Shown here piece by piece: positions 22,892 to 35,980 of a stretch of DNA of 64,000 nucleotides. Source of the DNA: Glutamicibacter protophormiae (GTDB lineage Bacteria > Actinomycetota > Actinomycetes > Actinomycetales > Micrococcaceae); the NCBI RefSeq assembly GCF_014647495.1, contig NZ_BMPH01000018.1, positions 1 to 64,000 of the forward strand, written 5' to 3'. Position 1 is the stretch's first letter. Each line of letters starts with the position of its first letter. The position numbers were made by a program, and so were the translations under genes. Under the pieces are notes generated by a model. The model saw only the letters and a list, made by a program, of their open reading frames with translations. It was not told the origin of the DNA and ran no database searches.

Positions 22892-23222
22892 CGGACCGCT
22901 GCCGCTGCGCGGGGTGGGCATGGATTCGCAGACCCGCTGCGCGCACTACCGCCAGCTCATCGACGTGATCGCGCTGCGCCATGCCTGCTGCGAGACCTGG
23001 TATCCCTGCCACCTGTGCCACCGGGAACTGGCGGACCACCCGGCGGTGCCGTGGCCGGCGGCGCGGGGCGCCGAACCGGCGGTGCTGTGCGGGGTGTGCG
23101 CGCACCGGATGACCGCGTCCGAGTACCTGGGCGCCGGATCCTGCCCGGCCTGCCAGGCCCTGTTCAACCCCGGGTGCAAGGCGCACGCCCCGCTGTACTT
23201 CGAGCTGCCGCAGCGGCCCTAG
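22884..23222 (+). CDS. CHY-type zinc-finger protein
   Basis: A 112-aa protein matching the bacterial CHY zinc-finger family: RGVGMDSQTRCAHYRQLIDVIALRHACCETWYPCHLCH, then LCGVCAHRMTASEYL and CPACQALFNPGCKAH. Nine or more Cys/His residues are placed to bind several zinc ions. The GTG at 22884 is preferred over the internal ATG at 22920 because the conserved RGV segment lies upstream of the latter. Function unknown in bacteria. It overlaps the alcohol dehydrogenase gene, which also needs zinc. Confidence 0.82.
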   Translation: MASGPLPLRGVGMDSQTRCAHYRQLIDVIALRHACCETWYPCHLCHRELADHPAVPWPAARGAEPAVLCGVCAHRMTASEYLGAGSCPACQALFNPGCKAHAPLYFELPQRP

Positions 23223-24583
23223 AGCCGCCCGGATTCCGGGACGTCAAGCCCCAGCAGCGCGTTCTCCGCGACCTCCATGAGCGCCGGGTGGATCCAGTAC
23301 TGCCCGCGCGCCAGGGTGTGCGCATCGATGCCCAGGTTCATCGCGGTGATCAGCGGCTGGATCAGGTTCGCCGCTTCGTAGCCGAGCACGTGGGCGCCCA
23401 GGATGCGCCCGTCGCGCTGATCCGCGACGACCTTGAACAGGCCCTGGTCGTCCTCCATGGCCCAGCCGTAGGCGGTGTCCGCGTATTTCTGGGTCTTGAC
23501 CGTGATGTGCTCGCCGATCTCGGCGCGGGCCTGGGCCTCGGTCAGCCCGATATGCGCGATTTCAGGGTGGGTGAAGACCGCCGCGGGAATGGCCGCTTCG
23601 GAGACTTCGCGCAGGTCGTCCGGGTGTTCCAGGTTGTGGGCGACCACGCGCGCCTGGTGGTTGGCCGCGTGCTTCAGCTGCTGCTCGCCGCTGATGTCCC
23701 CCAGCGCGTAGAGGCCCGCCACCGGTTCCCCGCCGCGCAGCACCCGCTGGAACTGATCCACCTGCAGCCGTCCGTCCGGATGCAGGTCCAGTCCGGCCGG
23801 GGCGGTGAATTCGGTGTTCGGGCGGCGGCCGGTGGCCACCAGCACGGCGTCCGCGGTGAAGGTCCCCGCTCCGGTGCGCACGCTCAGGCCCTCGGGCCCG
23901 GCGGCAATTGACTGCGGCTCGGCGTGCAGCTGCACATCCCAGTCAACCTGGGAGTTGAAGGCCTCGCAGATCTCGTCGTCGAGGTATTTGAGCAGCTTCT
24001 CCCCGCGCACCAGCTGGGTCACCTCGGTGCCCAGGCCGGCGAAGATCGAGGCGAATTCGCAGGCGATGAAGCCGGCGCCGATGACCAGCAGCTTTTCTGG
24101 CTGCTCGATGCGCATGATGGTGTCCGAGGTGTGCACCCCGGGAAGGTCGATGCCCTCGATGTCAGGCAGCGCCGGACGCGAGCCGGCCGCCAGCACGATC
24201 TGCTCGGCCTGGATTTCGGTGCCGTCCGCGGTGCGCAGCGTGCGCTCGTCGAGCAGCTGCACCTCGCCGAGCACCGTGACGTTCCCTGCCTGCTGGCGGT
24301 ACTCCAGCCCGCCGGCGGAAATCGGGTCGATGCGCGCGAAGATGCGGTCGCGGATCGCGGCGAAGTCCGCGCGCCCGGGCGGCAGCTGCACACCCAGCTT
24401 TTCGGCTTCCTGCCAGGTGCGCGCCAGCTGGGCGGGCCTGACGAACATCTTGGTGGGGATGCATCCCACGTTCAGGCAGGTGCCGCCGAAGACGCCGGAT
24501 TCGGCGATCGCGACCTGCTTGCCGTCCCAGAACGGCGTGAGCAGCGAGTTGCCCGAGCCGGAGCCCACGATCGCCAAATCCAT
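23219..24583 (-). CDS. mtr: Mycothione reductase
   Basis: A 454-aa flavoprotein disulfide reductase that keeps mycothiol, the actinobacterial thiol, reduced using NADPH. The redox pair is Cys36/Cys41 in GGTCLNVGCIPTK. The FAD motif AIVGSGSGN is at the N terminus, an NADPH-binding VIGAGFIACEFASIFAGLG lies mid-protein, and the C-terminal HPALMEVAENALLGL carries the His-Glu catalytic dyad. It is the last gene of a four-gene minus-strand run, 3 bp after a universal stress protein. Its stop is 4 bases inside the convergent zinc-finger gene. Confidence 0.92.
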   Translation of the reverse strand: MDLAIVGSGSGNSLLTPFWDGKQVAIAESGVFGGTCLNVGCIPTKMFVRPAQLARTWQEAEKLGVQLPPGRADFAAIRDRIFARIDPISAGGLEYRQQAGNVTVLGEVQLLDERTLRTADGTEIQAEQIVLAAGSRPALPDIEGIDLPGVHTSDTIMRIEQPEKLLVIGAGFIACEFASIFAGLGTEVTQLVRGEKLLKYLDDEICEAFNSQVDWDVQLHAEPQSIAAGPEGLSVRTGAGTFTADAVLVATGRRPNTEFTAPAGLDLHPDGRLQVDQFQRVLRGGEPVAGLYALGDISGEQQLKHAANHQARVVAHNLEHPDDLREVSEAAIPAAVFTHPEIAHIGLTEAQARAEIGEHITVKTQKYADTAYGWAMEDDQGLFKVVADQRDGRILGAHVLGYEAANLIQPLITAMNLGIDAHTLARGQYWIHPALMEVAENALLGLDVPESGRL

Positions 24584-27192: not shown

Positions 27193-27413
27193 CGATCGCC
27201 TTTCACGCGTAGGTGTCCTTTGATCCTCACATGTCAACGCACCGCTGGCAATGACTGCGGCGGGTTCGCGCAGGACCTTTGCAGGTTCCGGGCCCTGCCG
27301 CCTCGGAAGCTGTACGCGTGTTTCAGCCGGCGGGAGCCGCTAATGGGGCTCCGCCCCTTTATCTGTCGGAACGCTGGGGCTACAGTGCTAAGTACCAGAG
27401 CGAGGAGTGCGTC

Positions 27414-28598
27414 ATGATTACCCCAGAAAGCCAACCCACCGCGGAAGTTTCCGGCCGCTACGTACTGATTTTCGATTCGCCGACATCAGCCCACCCATCG
27501 ACCCTTGGCATGGCAGCCCTTGAGGACAAGGTGCCCAATGTGCTGACTGCCGCGGGCTACCAGACAACGGAGTACTTCCCGCGGCTGGGCATCGCCGTGG
27601 TGGATTCCCCACCGGATCAGCTTGACGAGTTCACGGCCCGCATGGCCGGCGAGCGCCTGCCGGCCCGCGTGGTTCCGGAAAGGACCTACCACATCCTCAC
27701 CGAAGCCGACGACGAACCCACCAGCTATGCGGACAACGACGAGTTCACCTGGGGCCTGCAGGCGGTCCAGGCCGCGAATTCGCAGTACACCGGCGCGGGC
27801 ATCAAGGTTGCAGTACTGGATACCGGGTTCGACGCGCAGCACCCCGATTTCGCCGGGCGCAGCGTCACCACCAAGTCCTTCGCGGCCGGCGAGGACGCCG
27901 CGGACGGCCATGGCCACGGAACGCACTGCATCGGCACCTCCTGCGGGCCGCGCACGGTCGAGTCGGGCCGCGGCTACGGGGTCGCCTCCGGTGCGGAGAT
28001 CTTCGCCGGCAAGGTGCTGGGCAACAACGGGTCAGGCACCGACTCCATGATCCTGGCCGGCATCGACTGGGCGCTGCAGAACGAATGCCACGTCATCTCC
28101 ATGTCCTTGGGCGCCGATGTCCGCGAGGTCCACCCTCCCTATGTCACCGCCGGACGCCGGGCGCTGGAGCAGGGAACCCTGATCATCGCCGCGGCGGGCA
28201 ACAACGCCAAGCGCGCTTCCAACGATCCGGGATTCGTGGGAGCACCGGCGAACAGCCCCTACATCATGGCGGTCGGCGCGCTGGACTCCGGCTTGCAGGT
28301 GGCGCCGTTCTCCGCACGGACCCTTCCGGGCCGCGGCGGGCAGGTGGACATCTCGGGTCCCGGCGTCAAGGTCTACTCGTCCTGGCCGGGCGCACAGCGC
28401 TACAACACGATCAGCGGCACCTCCATGGCCACCCCGCACGTGGCCGGCGTGGCTGCGCTGCTGGCCGAGGCCACCGGGTACCGTGCCCGCGAGTTGTGGG
28501 CCGAGCTGGTGCAGCAGGCCAGGCGCTTGGAGCAGTTCTCCGTCGACGTGGGAGCCGGCCTGACCAGGTCGCCGGAACCAGCGCAGGAGCAGGCGTAG
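27414..28598 (+). CDS. S8 (subtilisin-family) serine peptidase with N-terminal I9-like region
   Basis: A 394-aa subtilase. The catalytic triad is Asp136 (VAVLDTGFD), His171 (GHGHGTHCIGT) and Ser337 (GTSMATPHVAG), with Asn263 (AAAGNN) as oxyanion residue. Residues ~14-80 resemble an I9 propeptide (RYVLIFDS... VLTAAGYQTTEYFPRLGIAVVD). No signal peptide is present, so it looks intracellular or exported by another route. ATG 27414, with GAGGAG upstream, is chosen over the longer frame from 27279. It is followed 4 bp later by a small I9-like protein gene. Confidence 0.9.
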   Translation: MITPESQPTAEVSGRYVLIFDSPTSAHPSTLGMAALEDKVPNVLTAAGYQTTEYFPRLGIAVVDSPPDQLDEFTARMAGERLPARVVPERTYHILTEADDEPTSYADNDEFTWGLQAVQAANSQYTGAGIKVAVLDTGFDAQHPDFAGRSVTTKSFAAGEDAADGHGHGTHCIGTSCGPRTVESGRGYGVASGAEIFAGKVLGNNGSGTDSMILAGIDWALQNECHVISMSLGADVREVHPPYVTAGRRALEQGTLIIAAAGNNAKRASNDPGFVGAPANSPYIMAVGALDSGLQVAPFSARTLPGRGGQVDISGPGVKVYSSWPGAQRYNTISGTSMATPHVAGVAALLAEATGYRARELWAELVQQARRLEQFSVDVGAGLTRSPEPAQEQA

Positions 28599-28602
28599 GG
28601 CC

Positions 28603-28824
28603 ATGGCTTCCCACCGCACGTTCATCGTGACGATTTCCGAGACCTACACCAGCAACATGCCCGCTGCGGTCACCCAGCTGGAGTCCCACGGGCTGGAAGT
28701 CCAGCAGGTGCTGGGCATGCTCGGGCAAGTCATCGGCCAAGCGCCCGATGAACGGGTCAAGGAGCTCAAGAACCTCGACTGCGTCAAATCCGTCGATTCC
28801 GAACGCCGGTACAAGGCGCTCTAG
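28603..28824 (+). CDS. Small I9-propeptide-like protein, putative cognate subtilase inhibitor
   Basis: A 73-aa protein, HRTFIVTISETYTSNM followed by a leucine/valine-patterned helix and a closing LKNLDCVKSVDSERRYKAL. The beta-alpha-beta-beta-alpha-beta pattern and the final V-x-S-V-x-x-(E/D) resemble the inhibitor I9 fold (as in stand-alone fungal inhibitors POIA1 and yeast Ib2). The gene is 4 bp past the S8 peptidase stop, so the two are co-transcribed. An inhibitor or chaperone of the peptidase is the obvious reading, but this is inferred from fold resemblance and position. Confidence 0.68.
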   Translation: MASHRTFIVTISETYTSNMPAAVTQLESHGLEVQQVLGMLGQVIGQAPDERVKELKNLDCVKSVDSERRYKAL

Positions 28825-28903: not shown

Positions 28904-29587
28904 CTATTCTTCCAGCAGCGCCTCTTCCAAGGCCTCGACGTCCAGGATGTTGATTTCCCGACGTCCGGCCAGCTCGATGCTTCCGTCCTGTGCGAAGGCG
29001 GCCAGCCGGCGGCTGAGGGTTTCGGGGGTAGTGCCCAGATAGGCGGCGATGTCCTTCTTCGCCATGGGAAGAGTGATGCGTGCAATGCCGTTGGCGAATT
29101 TCGCCGGCTGGTCGAGCAGGTAGGCGGCAACCCGGGCGGAGACGTCGCTGGAGGTGATGGCGGCAAGCAGCCTCTCGGTGGACGCCAAGCGGTCCGAAAG
29201 AGTGCGCAGCATACGCTGGCTGATGTCCGGGTATTCGCCGAGCAGCCGTGCCAGATCCCGGTGCTCGAAGACGCACATCTGGCTGTCCTCCAGCGCGGTG
29301 ACCGAATCAGTGGACAACTGCCCGGTGATGAACGCGCGTTCCCCAACGACATCCCCGACCGTGGCCGTGCGCAGCACCTGCTCCTGCCCGCCGGCCGTAC
29401 CGTGGCTGATTTTGAGTTTTCCGGTGTGCAGCACCAGCAAACGGGATTGCTGCTGCCCCGGGGAGGCCACGATGGTCCCCCGCTCCACATGCAGGGGCGT
29501 GGCGAATTCGGCCACGTGTTCCTGTTGGCTGCGATCCAAGCCCTGGAAAATCGGCACTCGCGCCACACACAAGTCATTGCTGGACAT
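28904..29587 (-). CDS. Crp/Fnr-family regulator with two-cysteine (FLP-like) arrangement
   Basis: A 227-aa protein: an N-terminal cyclic-nucleotide-binding-type barrel (residues ~10-125), a long dimer helix, and a C-terminal winged helix with MAKKDIAAYLGTTPETLSRRLAAF as the recognition region. Only Cys7 and Cys105 are present; the four-cysteine iron-sulfur set of enterobacterial FNR is absent. The spacing of 98 residues closely matches the Cys5/Cys102 pair that forms a disulfide redox switch in Lactobacillus FLP (known from that family; here inferred). Divergent from the HMA/ATPase genes, whose promoter carries an FNR-type box. Probably a redox regulator of metal export. Confidence 0.85.
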   Translation of the reverse strand: MSSNDLCVARVPIFQGLDRSQQEHVAEFATPLHVERGTIVASPGQQQSRLLVLHTGKLKISHGTAGGQEQVLRTATVGDVVGERAFITGQLSTDSVTALEDSQMCVFEHRDLARLLGEYPDISQRMLRTLSDRLASTERLLAAITSSDVSARVAAYLLDQPAKFANGIARITLPMAKKDIAAYLGTTPETLSRRLAAFAQDGSIELAGRREINILDVEALEEALLEE

Positions 29588-29613
29588 GCCCCCAGCTTAG
29601 CGGCGCGGACGAC

Positions 29614-29627
29614 TTGACCTACGTCAA
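29614..29627 (+). promoter_or_regulatory. FNR-like box TTGAC-N4-GTCAA
   Basis: TTGACCTACGTCAA is a perfect inverted repeat (TTGAC/GTCAA) matching the FNR/CRP-superfamily half-site pattern. It lies between the divergent Crp/Fnr gene and the HMA gene. Its centre is about 41 bp upstream of the predicted start near 29661, the usual class II activator position. Confidence 0.65.
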
Positions 29628-29649
29628 GGCATCCTCGATCCCGGATGGC

Positions 29650-29655
29650 TAACGT
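29650..29655 (+). promoter_or_regulatory. Candidate -10 element of the HMA/ATPase promoter
   Basis: TAACGT lies 22 bp past the end of the FNR-like box. No good -35 hexamer is present; the box occupies that place, which fits an activator-dependent promoter. Confidence 0.4.
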
Positions 29656-29700
29656 AGCTGGTACAAGGAACGGAACAATCCGTACCCGACCGAGAAAAGG

Positions 29701-29940
29701 ATGAATGCCATGTCTGCCACCCAAACCCATACGGTCCTTCGCGCCGAAGGCTTTTCCTGCCCTTCGTGCGTCGCCAAGATCGAGAAGCAGGTGGGGCGCC
29801 TTGACGGCGTGGACCGGGTCAAGGTGCATTTTGCGTCCTCGCGCATTGAGGTAGACCACGACAGCGCGAAGGTCTCCGCACAGGACCTCGTCGACGCGGT
29901 AGGCAAGGCCGGGTACACCTCGGCCGTCTCCGCGTTCTAG
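29701..29940 (+). CDS. HMA-domain metal chaperone (CopZ-like)
   Basis: A 79-aa heavy-metal-associated domain. The metal site is SCPSC (CxxC), inside a ferredoxin-like fold ending DLVDAVGKAGYTSAV. It would bind Cu(I) or Zn(II) and hand it to the P1B ATPase encoded 38 bp downstream, which itself lacks an N-terminal metal-binding domain. The start could be ATG 29701 or the next in-frame ATG at 29710 (MSATQTH). The leader holds an FNR-like box. Confidence 0.86.
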   Translation: MNAMSATQTHTVLRAEGFSCPSCVAKIEKQVGRLDGVDRVKVHFASSRIEVDHDSAKVSAQDLVDAVGKAGYTSAVSAF

Positions 29941-29978: not shown

Positions 29979-31895
29979 GTGAATAGGCTCGCACGGTGGA
30001 AGGTGCCGATCATCTCCGGCGCACTGATTCTCGTGTCTTTCGCAATGAATGCCAATGGCGTCTTGCCGTTCGGCCAATGGTGGATGGGCGATGCAAGCTT
30101 CGCGCTGGGCGACCTGTTCATGATCGCGGCGGCCGCGGTGGCAGGATACAAGATCCTGGCCAATGCCATCCGGGCGCTGGGTGCCAAGGTCATCGGCATC
30201 GATCTTCTGGTTTCCATCGCCGCCCTGGGCGCGCTGGCTATCGGAAATTTCTGGGAGGCCGCGGCCGTCACCTTCCTGTTTTCCGTGGGCCACGCGCTGG
30301 AAACCGCGACCCTGAACAAAACCCGTTCGGCCCTGGCCGAGCTGGTGGCGGTTGCCCCGGACACCGCGCTGGTGCTGCGGGATGGAAGCCAGCAGGAGGT
30401 TCCGGCTGCATCGGTTCGCAGCGGGGAGACCGTGCTGGTGGCCCATGGGGCCAAGGTTCCGGTGGACGGACTGGTCATCTCGGGCACCGCGGCGCTGGAT
30501 GAGGCATCCATCACCGGAGAATCGATTCCAGTGGACAAGTCAGCTGGAGATTCCGTGTTCGCCGGCACCATCTCCCGCGGCGGTTTCATCCAGGTGAAGG
30601 CAACCGGCATCGGCGCCGACACCACGCTGGCCCGCATCATCCACCGCGTGGAAGAGGCCCAGGACGCCAAGGCCCGCACCCAGGCGTTCTTTGACCGCTT
30701 CTCCCGCTGGTACACCCCGGGCATCATCCTGCTTGCGGCCGTCGCCGGCGTGCTGACGCAGGATCTGGTGCTGGCGCTGACGCTGCTGGTCATCGGCTGT
30801 CCCGGCGCCCTGGTGATCTCCATCCCCGTGGCCATCGTGGCGGGCATCGGCCGCGCCGCGCGCAACGGCATCCTGATCAAGGGCGGAGAGTTCCTGGAAA
30901 CCTCGGCGAAGATCACCGCCGTGGCCGTGGACAAGACCGGCACCCTGACCGAGGGGCACCCGCAGCTGACCGACGTGGTGGTGCTGGATCCTTCGCTGAA
31001 GCGGCAGGAAGTGCTCGACTGGGCCGCGGCGGCCGAGGCAGGGTCCCAGCACCCGCTGGCCAAGCCGATCATCGAGGCCGGCCGTGCCCCACTGGGCATC
31101 CCGCAGATCACCACGGTTCCCGGCATGGGCCTGGAGGCGCAGCTCGACGGTCGACGGATCCTGGTGGGCAACCTGCCGCTGCTGGACGAATACGGCGTCC
31201 AGACCCGCCGCGGCGAAGCCCGGGCCGCCGCGGAAACTCTGGCGGCGGATGGAAAGACGCCGATGGTCATCGCCTTGGACGGCGCCGCGATCGGAGTCCT
31301 GGCGGTGGCCGACGCGTTGCGCGAGGATGCCGCGGCGATGGTCCAGCAGCTGCATTCCGCCGGAGTGAAGGTGCTCATGCTCACCGGCGATACGCCGCTC
31401 GTGGCCCAGGCCATCGGACGCAGGGTCGGGATCGACGAGGTGCATGCCTCGCTGCTGCCGGAGGACAAGCTGCAGGCGGTCGCAGCGATGCAGCGCGCGG
31501 GCCACACCGTGGCCATGGTGGGCGACGGCATCAACGACGCCCCCGCACTGGCGACGGCGGACATCGGCGTAGCCATGGGCGCCGCCGGTTCGGGCGTCGC
31601 GGTGGAGACCGCGGACATCGCGCTGATGGGCGACAACCTGTTGCGCCTGCCGCAGGCGATCACCCTCGCCAAACGGACCGTGTCCATCATGCGGCAGAAC
31701 ATCGTCATCGCCCTGGCCACCGTGGCGCTGCTGCTCGCCGGGGTGTTCGCCGGAGGAGTCACCATGGCTATCGGCATGCTGGTGCACGAGCTGTCGGTGC
31801 TGGTGGTCATCGCCAACGCGATGCGGCTGCTGCGCGACACCGGCTCGCGCCGCGCACCCGCCGCAGCGAAGCAGCCGGTGGCGCTGGCCGGCTGA
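29979..31895 (+). CDS. P1B-type heavy-metal-transporting ATPase with CPG motif
   Basis: A 638-aa P-type ATPase. The actuator motif SITGESIPVDKSAGD is near residue 178, and the phosphorylation site Asp318 lies in VDKTGTLTEGH. An HPLAKPI motif typical of metal ATPases and VGDGINDAPALATADIGVAMG follow. The membrane metal motif is Cys-Pro-Gly (residues 274-276, IGCPGALVISIP) instead of the usual Cys-Pro-Cys. There is no N-terminal HMA domain; a separate HMA gene precedes it. Start GTG at 29979, with CAAGGGAGC upstream. Metal specificity is therefore uncertain. Probably an exporter, co-transcribed with the chaperone. Confidence 0.88.
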   Translation: MNRLARWKVPIISGALILVSFAMNANGVLPFGQWWMGDASFALGDLFMIAAAAVAGYKILANAIRALGAKVIGIDLLVSIAALGALAIGNFWEAAAVTFLFSVGHALETATLNKTRSALAELVAVAPDTALVLRDGSQQEVPAASVRSGETVLVAHGAKVPVDGLVISGTAALDEASITGESIPVDKSAGDSVFAGTISRGGFIQVKATGIGADTTLARIIHRVEEAQDAKARTQAFFDRFSRWYTPGIILLAAVAGVLTQDLVLALTLLVIGCPGALVISIPVAIVAGIGRAARNGILIKGGEFLETSAKITAVAVDKTGTLTEGHPQLTDVVVLDPSLKRQEVLDWAAAAEAGSQHPLAKPIIEAGRAPLGIPQITTVPGMGLEAQLDGRRILVGNLPLLDEYGVQTRRGEARAAAETLAADGKTPMVIALDGAAIGVLAVADALREDAAAMVQQLHSAGVKVLMLTGDTPLVAQAIGRRVGIDEVHASLLPEDKLQAVAAMQRAGHTVAMVGDGINDAPALATADIGVAMGAAGSGVAVETADIALMGDNLLRLPQAITLAKRTVSIMRQNIVIALATVALLLAGVFAGGVTMAIGMLVHELSVLVVIANAMRLLRDTGSRRAPAAAKQPVALAG

Positions 31896-34573: not shown

Positions 34574-35980
34574 TTGTCACAACGCGTTGCAATCATCGGA
34601 GCAGGACCCAGCGGAATGGCTCAGCTGCGAGCCTTCGAATCGGCTCGCAAGGCCGGTCGCTCGGTCCCGGAAATCGTCTGCTACGAAAAGCAGGATGACT
34701 GGGGTGGCCAGTGGAATTTCAGCTGGCGCACCGGCATCGACAAGTACGGCGAAGCAGTCCACTCGAGCATGTACCGCAACCTGTGGTCCAACGGTCCCAA
34801 GGAGGCCTTGGAATTCGCCGAATACACCTTTGACGAGCATTTCGGCCGCCCGATTTCCTCGTATCCGCCGCGTGCTGTGCTGTGGGACTACATCAACGGC
34901 CGCGCCGAGAAGTCGGACGTCAAGAAGTACGTCCGGTTCTCGACAGTGGTTCGCTGGGTTCAGTTCGACGAAAGCACCCAGAAGTTCACCGTCACTGTTG
35001 AAGACCTGGCTAGCGGCATCACCGAAAGCAACGAATTCGACTATGTCATCATCGGCTCCGGACACTTCAGCTTCCCCAACGTCCCGGACTTCGACGGTAT
35101 TGAAACCTTCCCAGGCACGCTGATCCACGCACACGACTTCCGTGGCGCCGAACGCCTCGCCGGCCGCAACGTCCTGTTGATCGGAGCCAGCTACTCTGCC
35201 GAGGACATCGGAATCCAGGCCTTCAAGATGGGTGCAAGCTCGGTGACCATGAGCTACCGAACCGCCCCGATGGGATACGAGTGGCCTGAAGGCATCCAGG
35301 AGCGCCCTCTGGTCACCCGCTTCGAGGGGAACACCGCCCACTTCGCGGACGGCACCGAAGGCCAGTTCGACGCGGTCATTCTGTGCACCGGCTACCTGCA
35401 CCACTATCCGTTCCTGCCCTCGGATCTGGCCCTGTCCTCCCCCAACAACCTGTATCCCAAGTCGCTGTACCGTGGCGTGGTCAGCGAGGCAAACAACCAG
35501 TTGTTCTACCTCGGTGCACAAGACCAATGGTTTACCTTCAACATGTTCGATGCGCAGGCTTGGTATGTTCGCGATGTCATTCTAGGCGACGCGCAGCTTC
35601 CCTCGCGGTCCGACCAAAAGCAAGACATGGATCAGTGGGCGCAGCGCCTTGAGAATCTCAGCAGCGCGGCCGACGAAGTCCATTTCCAGGCCGACTATAT
35701 CCGCGACCTCATCGAACAGACGGATTATCCGATGTTCGACCTGGATGAGGTCGCCCGCATATTCCTGGCCTGGAAGAACGACAAGCAGCACAACATCTTG
35801 AACTACCGAGATCAGGTCTATCCTTCGGTCATGACCGGAACCATGGCCTGCGAACACCACACGCCGTGGCTTCGGGAACTGGATGACTCCTTGGAACGCT
35901 ACCTGTCCTACCCGGAAGAGGACGAACTGGAACGCATCGTCCGCGGCAAAGACAGCTCTACAACCACTGCTTCGAAATAA
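34574..35980 (+). CDS. tmm: Trimethylamine monooxygenase, bacterial FMO (Tmm)
   Basis: A 468-aa flavin-containing monooxygenase that should oxidise trimethylamine to its N-oxide with NADPH and O2. FAD motif GAGPSG is at residues 9-14, the FMO signature FxGxxxHxxxF at 179-189 (FPGTLIHAHDF), and the NADPH motif GASYSAED at 204-211. Long stretches such as VHSSMYRNLWSNGPKEALEFAEY and CTGYLHHYPFLPSDL match my memory of marine Tmm. Close relatives also oxidise other tertiary amines and indole. Start TTG 34574 with GGAGAGG five bases upstream. No Tdm or amine transporter is nearby. The gene appears less GC-rich than its neighbours. Confidence 0.85.
   Translation: MSQRVAIIGAGPSGMAQLRAFESARKAGRSVPEIVCYEKQDDWGGQWNFSWRTGIDKYGEAVHSSMYRNLWSNGPKEALEFAEYTFDEHFGRPISSYPPRAVLWDYINGRAEKSDVKKYVRFSTVVRWVQFDESTQKFTVTVEDLASGITESNEFDYVIIGSGHFSFPNVPDFDGIETFPGTLIHAHDFRGAERLAGRNVLLIGASYSAEDIGIQAFKMGASSVTMSYRTAPMGYEWPEGIQERPLVTRFEGNTAHFADGTEGQFDAVILCTGYLHHYPFLPSDLALSSPNNLYPKSLYRGVVSEANNQLFYLGAQDQWFTFNMFDAQAWYVRDVILGDAQLPSRSDQKQDMDQWAQRLENLSSAADEVHFQADYIRDLIEQTDYPMFDLDEVARIFLAWKNDKQHNILNYRDQVYPSVMTGTMACEHHTPWLRELDDSLERYLSYPEEDELERIVRGKDSSTTTASK

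Follow-up and report, generated by a model that had tools for sequence, protein, structure and literature searches.

The 64,000-nucleotide stretch of Glutamicibacter protophormiae DNA analyzed here (the window) encodes a Crp/Fnr-family regulator with only two cysteines, divergently arranged to an operon that encodes a metal chaperone together with an ATPase of the P1B type. Judged from its sequence, the protein most aptly counts as a new two-cysteine regulator of the FLP type. We propose, with about even confidence, that it is a class II activator of the neighboring metal-efflux operon gated by its thiol pair, most likely through a disulfide between Cys7 and Cys105.

The regulator gene (positions 28904–29587, reverse strand) encodes a protein of 227 residues comprising the Pfam domains cNMP_binding and HTH_Crp_2, with a recognition helix reading PETLSRR. 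A sequence-only reading of the same DNA had claimed that the protein has just two cysteines, at positions 7 and 105 and 98 residues apart, with a metal chaperone encoded next to it. Translation of 28904–29587 bears out the cysteines and their spacing, and Pfam matches together with the translations confirm the neighborhood as a divergent HMA gene followed by a P1B-type ATPase gene. Counted from the gene start at 29587, the Cys7 codon lies at 29567–29569 and the codons of Met104-Cys105-Val106 at 29270–29278, both on the reverse strand. An AlphaFold2 model of the regulator showed the Crp/Fnr fold (mean pLDDT 85.9), in which Cys7 opens a predicted helix (residues 7–10) and Cys105 is found within a predicted strand (residues 102–108). 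Fold searches with the model matched GlxR, mycobacterial CRP, FNR and Cmr, among others.

Relatives were gathered by several routes: a peptide-pattern scan of genome contigs using six peptides, one of them containing C105, which gave 72 loci; searches with the whole protein against 18 genus genomes and 396 genomes of the order; a whole-protein search of 295 genomes belonging to the same order as an Enterococcus genome, from the matches of which 40 regions (L190–L229) were picked by hand; and named plasmids, with 18 records opened among 991 + 738 plasmid records. One of the 72 peptide-scan loci (L074, 26 bits) was excluded from the tallies. The final set comprised 174 loci, 60 from Actinobacteria or Chloroflexi and 114 from Firmicutes, and choosing the best member per locus and removing duplicates left 136 distinct members. 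In the alignment of these, C7 was kept in 134, C105 in 135 and both in 133, and no other cysteine column exceeded 7% over all 179 aligned rows; on the strength of this alignment, the cysteine pair is not a product of chance. As one of the fetch peptides contains C105, the retrieval was redone by whole-protein search of the 396 order genomes (E ≤ 1e-40), and here too the non-self matches kept C105 (20/20) and C7 (19/20). A 27-row alignment, with members sharing 30–67% identity with the window protein, had 28 invariant columns, and C7 and C105 were the sole cysteines among them. Departures from the pattern were rare: leucine replaces C7 at L134, tryptophan replaces C105 at L218, where a cysteine is found three residues earlier, and the regulator reading frame is broken at L031. 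A distant paralogue (28% identity) present in 18 of 18 genus genomes, which we take to be of the GlxR type, has neither cysteine.

The sequence-only reading had likened the pair to that of Lactobacillus FLP, in which Cys5 and Cys102, 97 residues apart, reportedly form a redox-sensing disulfide. The spacing in the window protein is 98 as against 97 in FLP, and the latter spacing was itself found in eight lactic-acid-bacterial members (L097, L103, L216, L221, L222, L224, L226 and L229) of a collection holding at most two members per locus, each scoring at least 100 bits. The resemblance is thus upheld by the two cysteines, by the recognition helix and box of FNR type, and by the existence of lactic-acid-bacterial relatives with the 97-residue spacing. 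Common ancestry with the lactic-acid-bacterial FLP-like proteins seems likely, although in a tree of 58 hand-chosen rows the single change that parts the nine outgroup rows from the two-cysteine rows has low support (48/83). Within the tree, a clade of 16 Actinobacteria/Chloroflexi rows (97/86) leaves L135 outside.

The placement of the two cysteines was compared to that of the cluster ligands of E. coli FNR. In FNR, the cluster cysteines are C20, C23, C29 and C122, with C122 and the N-terminal ones holding one cluster. Two alignments of the regulator with the FNR sequence of strain K-12 were made, and C105 was aligned with C122 in both, whereas C7 was placed beside C23 in one and on the non-ligand cysteine C16 in the other, so that the N-terminal register is unsure. 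A further comparison was provided by a search from the ATPase side, covering 396 genomes of the phylum (E ≤ 1e-150), in which 11 genomes had a match, the host's own included. An HMA gene was found at all 11 non-self ATPase-side loci and a Crp/Fnr gene of another subfamily at 10 of them, and the same second subfamily occurs within the genus at L094 (loci L094 and L179–L189). Like the window regulator, these proteins are encoded next to ATPases of the CPG type. All 11 aligned regulators of this subfamily (the 10 and L094) carry a cysteine pair 104 residues apart. When aligned with the window protein, their strand cysteine sits two residues before C105 and thus faces the same side of the strand, while the distance from their N-terminal cysteine to the VP motif that follows exceeds that of C7 by 8 residues. 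Since both positions of the pair differ jointly, the comparison points to a contact between the two residues once the protein is folded, and the differently placed pair is the best evidence at sequence level for such a contact, although the members form one subfamily and count as one event rather than eleven. The nearness of Cys7 and Cys105 is argued for in addition by the FNR precedent, where C122 and the N-terminal cysteines share a cluster.

The intergenic region between the regulator and HMA genes contains an FNR-type box, TTGACCTACGTCAA (29614–29627), which is the only strict TTGAY-N4-RTCAA match in the window (0.05 expected by chance). It is followed after 22 nt by TAACGT (29650–29655, forward strand), the -10 element of the HMA promoter, from which the transcript of the HMA operon is predicted to start at about 29662, with the box centered at approximately -41.5. 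FNR and CRP activate class II promoters from about this position. The box is widely conserved, being present in 21/21 actinobacterial intergenic regions inspected and at 15 of the 20 non-self loci from the order search (1.5 kb flanks). In the 1.2 Mb of the 174 loci, overlapping loci included, 338 strict boxes were found vs 2 matches to a backward-pattern control, with 52 vs 0 in the Actinobacteria/Chloroflexi part, likewise including overlapping loci. Its distance to the -10 element also recurs sharply: when strand-oriented distinct sites were counted, each palindrome being entered once per strand, TAnnnT was found exactly 22 nt past the box at 37 of the 81 sites from Actinobacteria, whereas no other spacer length between 12 and 33 accounted for more than one site. 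The corresponding count in the Firmicutes set was 117 of 260 sites, with lesser peaks at spacers of 27 (43) and 17 (29) in these A+T-rich sequences. At L075, the nearest relative within the genus, the box has one mismatch and the spacing is unchanged. On the protein side, the recognition-helix residues E189, S192 and R193 are invariant in the 27 rows and match those of FNR. The conserved, class II-positioned box and the invariant FNR-like recognition helix together make it very probable that the regulator activates the HMA-ATPase operon. The earlier suggestion that the divergent HMA and ATPase genes are its target is therefore well supported, as a conserved class II operator fronts the operon.

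On the regulator side, a putative -10 element (TAAGCT, 29594–29599, reverse strand), read by eye, lies 6 nt before the ATG and suggests a leaderless transcript. The box itself is only 26 nt from this ATG, and the regulator possibly also affects its own, potentially leaderless, transcript. In the host genome, 10 strict boxes were found vs 8 control matches, and TAnnnT followed at 22 nt only for the box in the window, for which reason the regulator is probably dedicated and local. A regulon extending beyond the module in the host was considered and rejected on these same numbers. FLP-like CTGA-N4-6-TCAG sites, searched for in 33 loci, gave single scattered matches, none of them common to the promoters, and the one match shared by the five Firmicutes loci among them falls inside the regulator's own ORF. 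The second subfamily probably uses another operator, since the strict box is absent from all 11 ATPase-side loci; TTG-N8-CAA palindromes, searched for at six second-subfamily loci, gave two matches, both at L179 and without consistent position.

The divergent operon encodes an HMA metal chaperone of 79 residues with a CPSC site (29701–29940, forward strand) and a P1B-type ATPase of 638 residues (29979–31895, forward strand), which has CPG in TM4 and HELS in TM6. The only cysteine of the ATPase, Cys274, is that of the CPG motif, and the enzyme has neither the SPC motif of P1B-4 nor the CPC motif of P1B-2 ATPases in TM4. A copper-type or zinc-type assignment by motif was rejected, as the combination of CPG in TM4 and HE in TM6 is at odds with the CPC classes, and this combination fits no P1B class known to us. 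The nearest solved relative by sequence is the P1B-4 ATPase sCoaT (7qbz, E 5.6e-109). The metal site proposed for sCoaT is made up of the SPC motif of M4 and the HEGxT motif of M6, and E120 is placed on the exit path (PMC8880997); the same source credits P1B-4 pumps with the broadest range of cargoes. Compared to sCoaT, the window ATPase has CPG in place of SPC and LVHELS in place of LVHEGS in TM6, its chaperone is encoded separately, and its Glu93 aligns with the exit-path glutamate at 7qbz chain position 120. These features were followed in a 58-row alignment of the window ATPase and 57 relatives; the relatives were ORFs of more than 550 residues chosen for containing CPGA, so the presence of CPG in the window enzyme and all 57 relatives is uninformative on its frequency. 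The histidine of the TM6 motif is found in 57 rows and the glutamate in 58, followed by glycine (29), alanine (27), leucine (1) or isoleucine (1) at the third position and serine (58) at the fourth, and Glu93 is kept in 58/58. The predicted cargo site thus resembles that of P1B-4 with the cysteine moved. Iron(II) is the weakly favored candidate cargo because many Firmicutes versions of the module also encode Dps, whereas the CPSC site of the chaperone speaks for a softer metal.

Among loci of at least 5.5 kb, overlaps counted, a CPG-ATPase was found near the regulator in 30 of 34 from Actinobacteria/Chloroflexi and 61 of 85 from Firmicutes, leaving 4 and 24 longer loci, respectively, without one. 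An HMA gene was nearby in 28/34 and 67/85 of these loci. A Dps gene accompanied 50 of the 85 longer Firmicutes loci and was found at 0/60 Actinobacteria/Chloroflexi loci (0/34 of those of at least 5.5 kb). In the order search, a P1B ATPase ORF was present at 16 of 20 non-self loci (1.5 kb flanks), and a single Chloroflexi contig (L034) carries the regulator, the box and a short HMA ORF, with no ATPase found on its 4.8 kb. The module is accessory: a regulator of this kind occurs in 3 of the 18 genus genomes and, at E ≤ 1e-40, in 21 of the 396 genomes from the order. Genes for regulator, chaperone and ATPase also occur together on plasmids of Enterococcus, Lactococcus, Listeria, Staphylococcus equorum, Lactiplantibacillus, Ligilactobacillus, Latilactobacillus and Microbacterium; on a Leuconostoc lactis plasmid the ATPase is split over separate frames, and two named plasmid loci have a related Crp gene with no HMA-ATPase nearby. 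On plasmid pLIS19 of Listeria innocua (L098), Dps lies between the module's Crp gene and the gene for the iron-export permease FetB, which ends approximately 1.6 kb ahead of the Crp gene. One contig of Desemzia sp. RIT 804 carries the regulator locus three times (L043, L045 and L046), at intervals of exactly 73,123 bases, which represents either a tandem amplification or an assembly artefact. A gene table for Listeria pLM58 lists Dps, Crp/Fnr, copper chaperone and ATPase genes near each other, undiscussed in the portion of the source available (PMC5663981). The literature covered, to which subscription papers mostly did not belong, yielded no paper on a two-cysteine Crp/Fnr protein with an HMA-ATPase, which is weak evidence of absence.

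Several other genes of the window deserve mention. A mycothione reductase gene (23219–24583), about 4.3 kb from the regulator, scored above the cut-off of NF005884 and below that of TIGR03452, and the gene beside it had a weak match to universal stress protein. The region 27279–28824 comprises a subtilase gene followed by an ORF of 73 residues without a Pfam or NCBIfam match at E 0.001, which may encode a protease inhibitor. A trimethylamine monooxygenase gene (34574–35980; NF058570, above cut-off) is located in a stretch of lower G+C content (0.57–0.58).

In the mechanism that we propose, the regulator would bind the box at 29614–29627 near -41.5, standing in for a -35 element as in class II activation, while Cys7 and Cys105, situated in the region that binds the cluster in FNR, would act as a thiol pair setting DNA binding. 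Under oxidative or electrophile stress, a reversible intramolecular Cys7-Cys105 disulfide would most likely form, and activation would raise the levels of chaperone and pump, exporting a metal that is harmful in the oxidized or electrophile-stressed state. With the differently placed pair of the second subfamily as indirect support and Cmr of Mycobacterium tuberculosis as a precedent, such a disulfide switch is plausible, and we consider it somewhat likelier than a metal-bridged dithiolate, with both fitting the same data. The bond does not seem indispensable in every relative, as L134, which lacks C7, keeps two strict boxes as well as an ORF for the ATPase, and a stretch coding for CPSC can be made out there by eye. 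Arguing in the same direction, against a disulfide in every member, expression of arc is described as unchanged in the C129S variant of Streptococcus suis FlpS (PMC5039431).

The neighbors of the regulator are all metal proteins, which would suit direct metal sensing equally well. The cysteines would then form a two-thiolate site for an ion such as Cu(I), Zn(II), Cd(II) or Fe(II), joined in some lineages by nearby histidines or carboxylates, and metal binding itself would drive activation of the pump operon. The conservation of these neighbors speaks for it, as do a histidine no more than four positions ahead of C7 in 77 of the 85 Firmicutes members with a readable motif, the several histidines in the N-terminus of L134 where C7 is missing, and the listing of FlpA among lactic-acid-bacterial metal-homeostasis regulons (PMC3616900). 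Yet a histidine precedes C7 in just 3 of 48 actinobacterial members, and beyond the pair Glu83 is the only invariant possible ligand of the sensor domain in the 27-row alignment; on balance we regard a metal sensor as a possible but somewhat doubtful reading. That an iron-sulfur cluster is held by the two cysteines together with non-cysteine ligands, as a reduced FNR form sensing O2 or NO, draws on the alignment of C105 with a cluster ligand of FNR and on the cluster with non-cysteinyl N-terminal ligands reported for L. lactis FlpA, as cited in PMC5039431. This we consider very improbable, given at most two cysteines vs four in FNR and a second subfamily which likewise conserves a mere pair. 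The cysteines could also be structural or evolutionary remnants in a regulator that is constitutive or answers another ligand, as might be read from L134 and L218, each of which is down one cysteine, but the joint retention of both residues in nearly all distinct members, set against the scarcity of other cysteine columns, and the second subfamily's own invariant and differently placed pair make this an improbable explanation.

Returning to the thiol-gated activator, we tentatively extend it to a mobile module of Actinobacteria and Firmicutes that would combine a two-thiol activator, an unrecognized CPG/HE class of pump, a chaperone and often Dps, and in which a Fenton-active metal would be exported in response to the oxidation of thiols; two Crp/Fnr subfamilies would work in this way, with cysteine pairs at jointly shifted positions. 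To our knowledge, FLP proteins have so far been a small topic within lactic acid bacteria. If the proposal is true, the two-cysteine switch would be a widespread, horizontally moving control of metal pumps in at least two phyla, it would show how cells link the export of metals to their thiol or metal status, and CPG-type pumps would gain a regulator and a route to their cargo. The defined operator makes the switch directly testable, and the different pair of the second subfamily offers a natural comparison for thiol sensing by the Crp/Fnr fold.

Among known systems, the Lactobacillus casei FLP and the Lactococcus lactis FlpA and FlpB proteins, with two conserved cysteines and an FNR-type recognition helix, share these features with the window regulator. 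The actinobacterial copies differ from the lactic-acid-bacterial loci in that no Dps was found near them and that the operon is mostly divergent. Plasmids of L. lactis and Latilactobacillus curvatus show the order ATPase, small metal-binding protein, a protein annotated as DNA-binding or ferritin-like, and Crp, and the third gene of that order matches Dps at L097. The flp operons of L. lactis are written orfX-orfY-flp, and the gene order seen on these plasmids could correspond to this operon, in which case the lactic-acid-bacterial part of the module would be partly known. A role in zinc homeostasis has been described for L. lactis flpB (PMC9964109), and in strain MG1363 a different motif precedes flpA and flpB, the site proposed for FlpA being missing before flpB (PMC3547956).

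The M. tuberculosis regulator Cmr (Rv1675c) is likewise an actinobacterial Crp/Fnr protein with only two cysteines, 36 and 131, which are 95 residues apart. These form an intramolecular disulfide, and the oxidized form binds DNA less (PMC5499769), by which example the polarity of the switch proposed here could be reversed. The Cmr structure (5w5b) and the regulator model superimposed with Z 17.7 and an rmsd of 4.0 over 204 aligned residues, starting at model position 10 and chain position 40; the operator and targets of Cmr (the DosR regulon) differ from those of the window regulator. E. coli FNR shares the ETxSR recognition motif and the box type, but it has four cluster cysteines where the regulator has two cysteines in all, with no secure counterpart of C20, C23 and C29, and cluster-based oxygen sensing is not expected. 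In Desulfitobacterium CprK, a Crp/Fnr protein with a Cys11-Cys200 redox disulfide (PMC2610375), the bond differs in being intermolecular, linking the mobile N-terminus to the DNA-binding domain, and the ligand is a chlorophenol. Set beside these systems, the distinguishing features are the divergent actinobacterial layout, an operator at a fixed class II position, a pump of the CPG type, and a second subfamily whose cysteine pair is placed differently.
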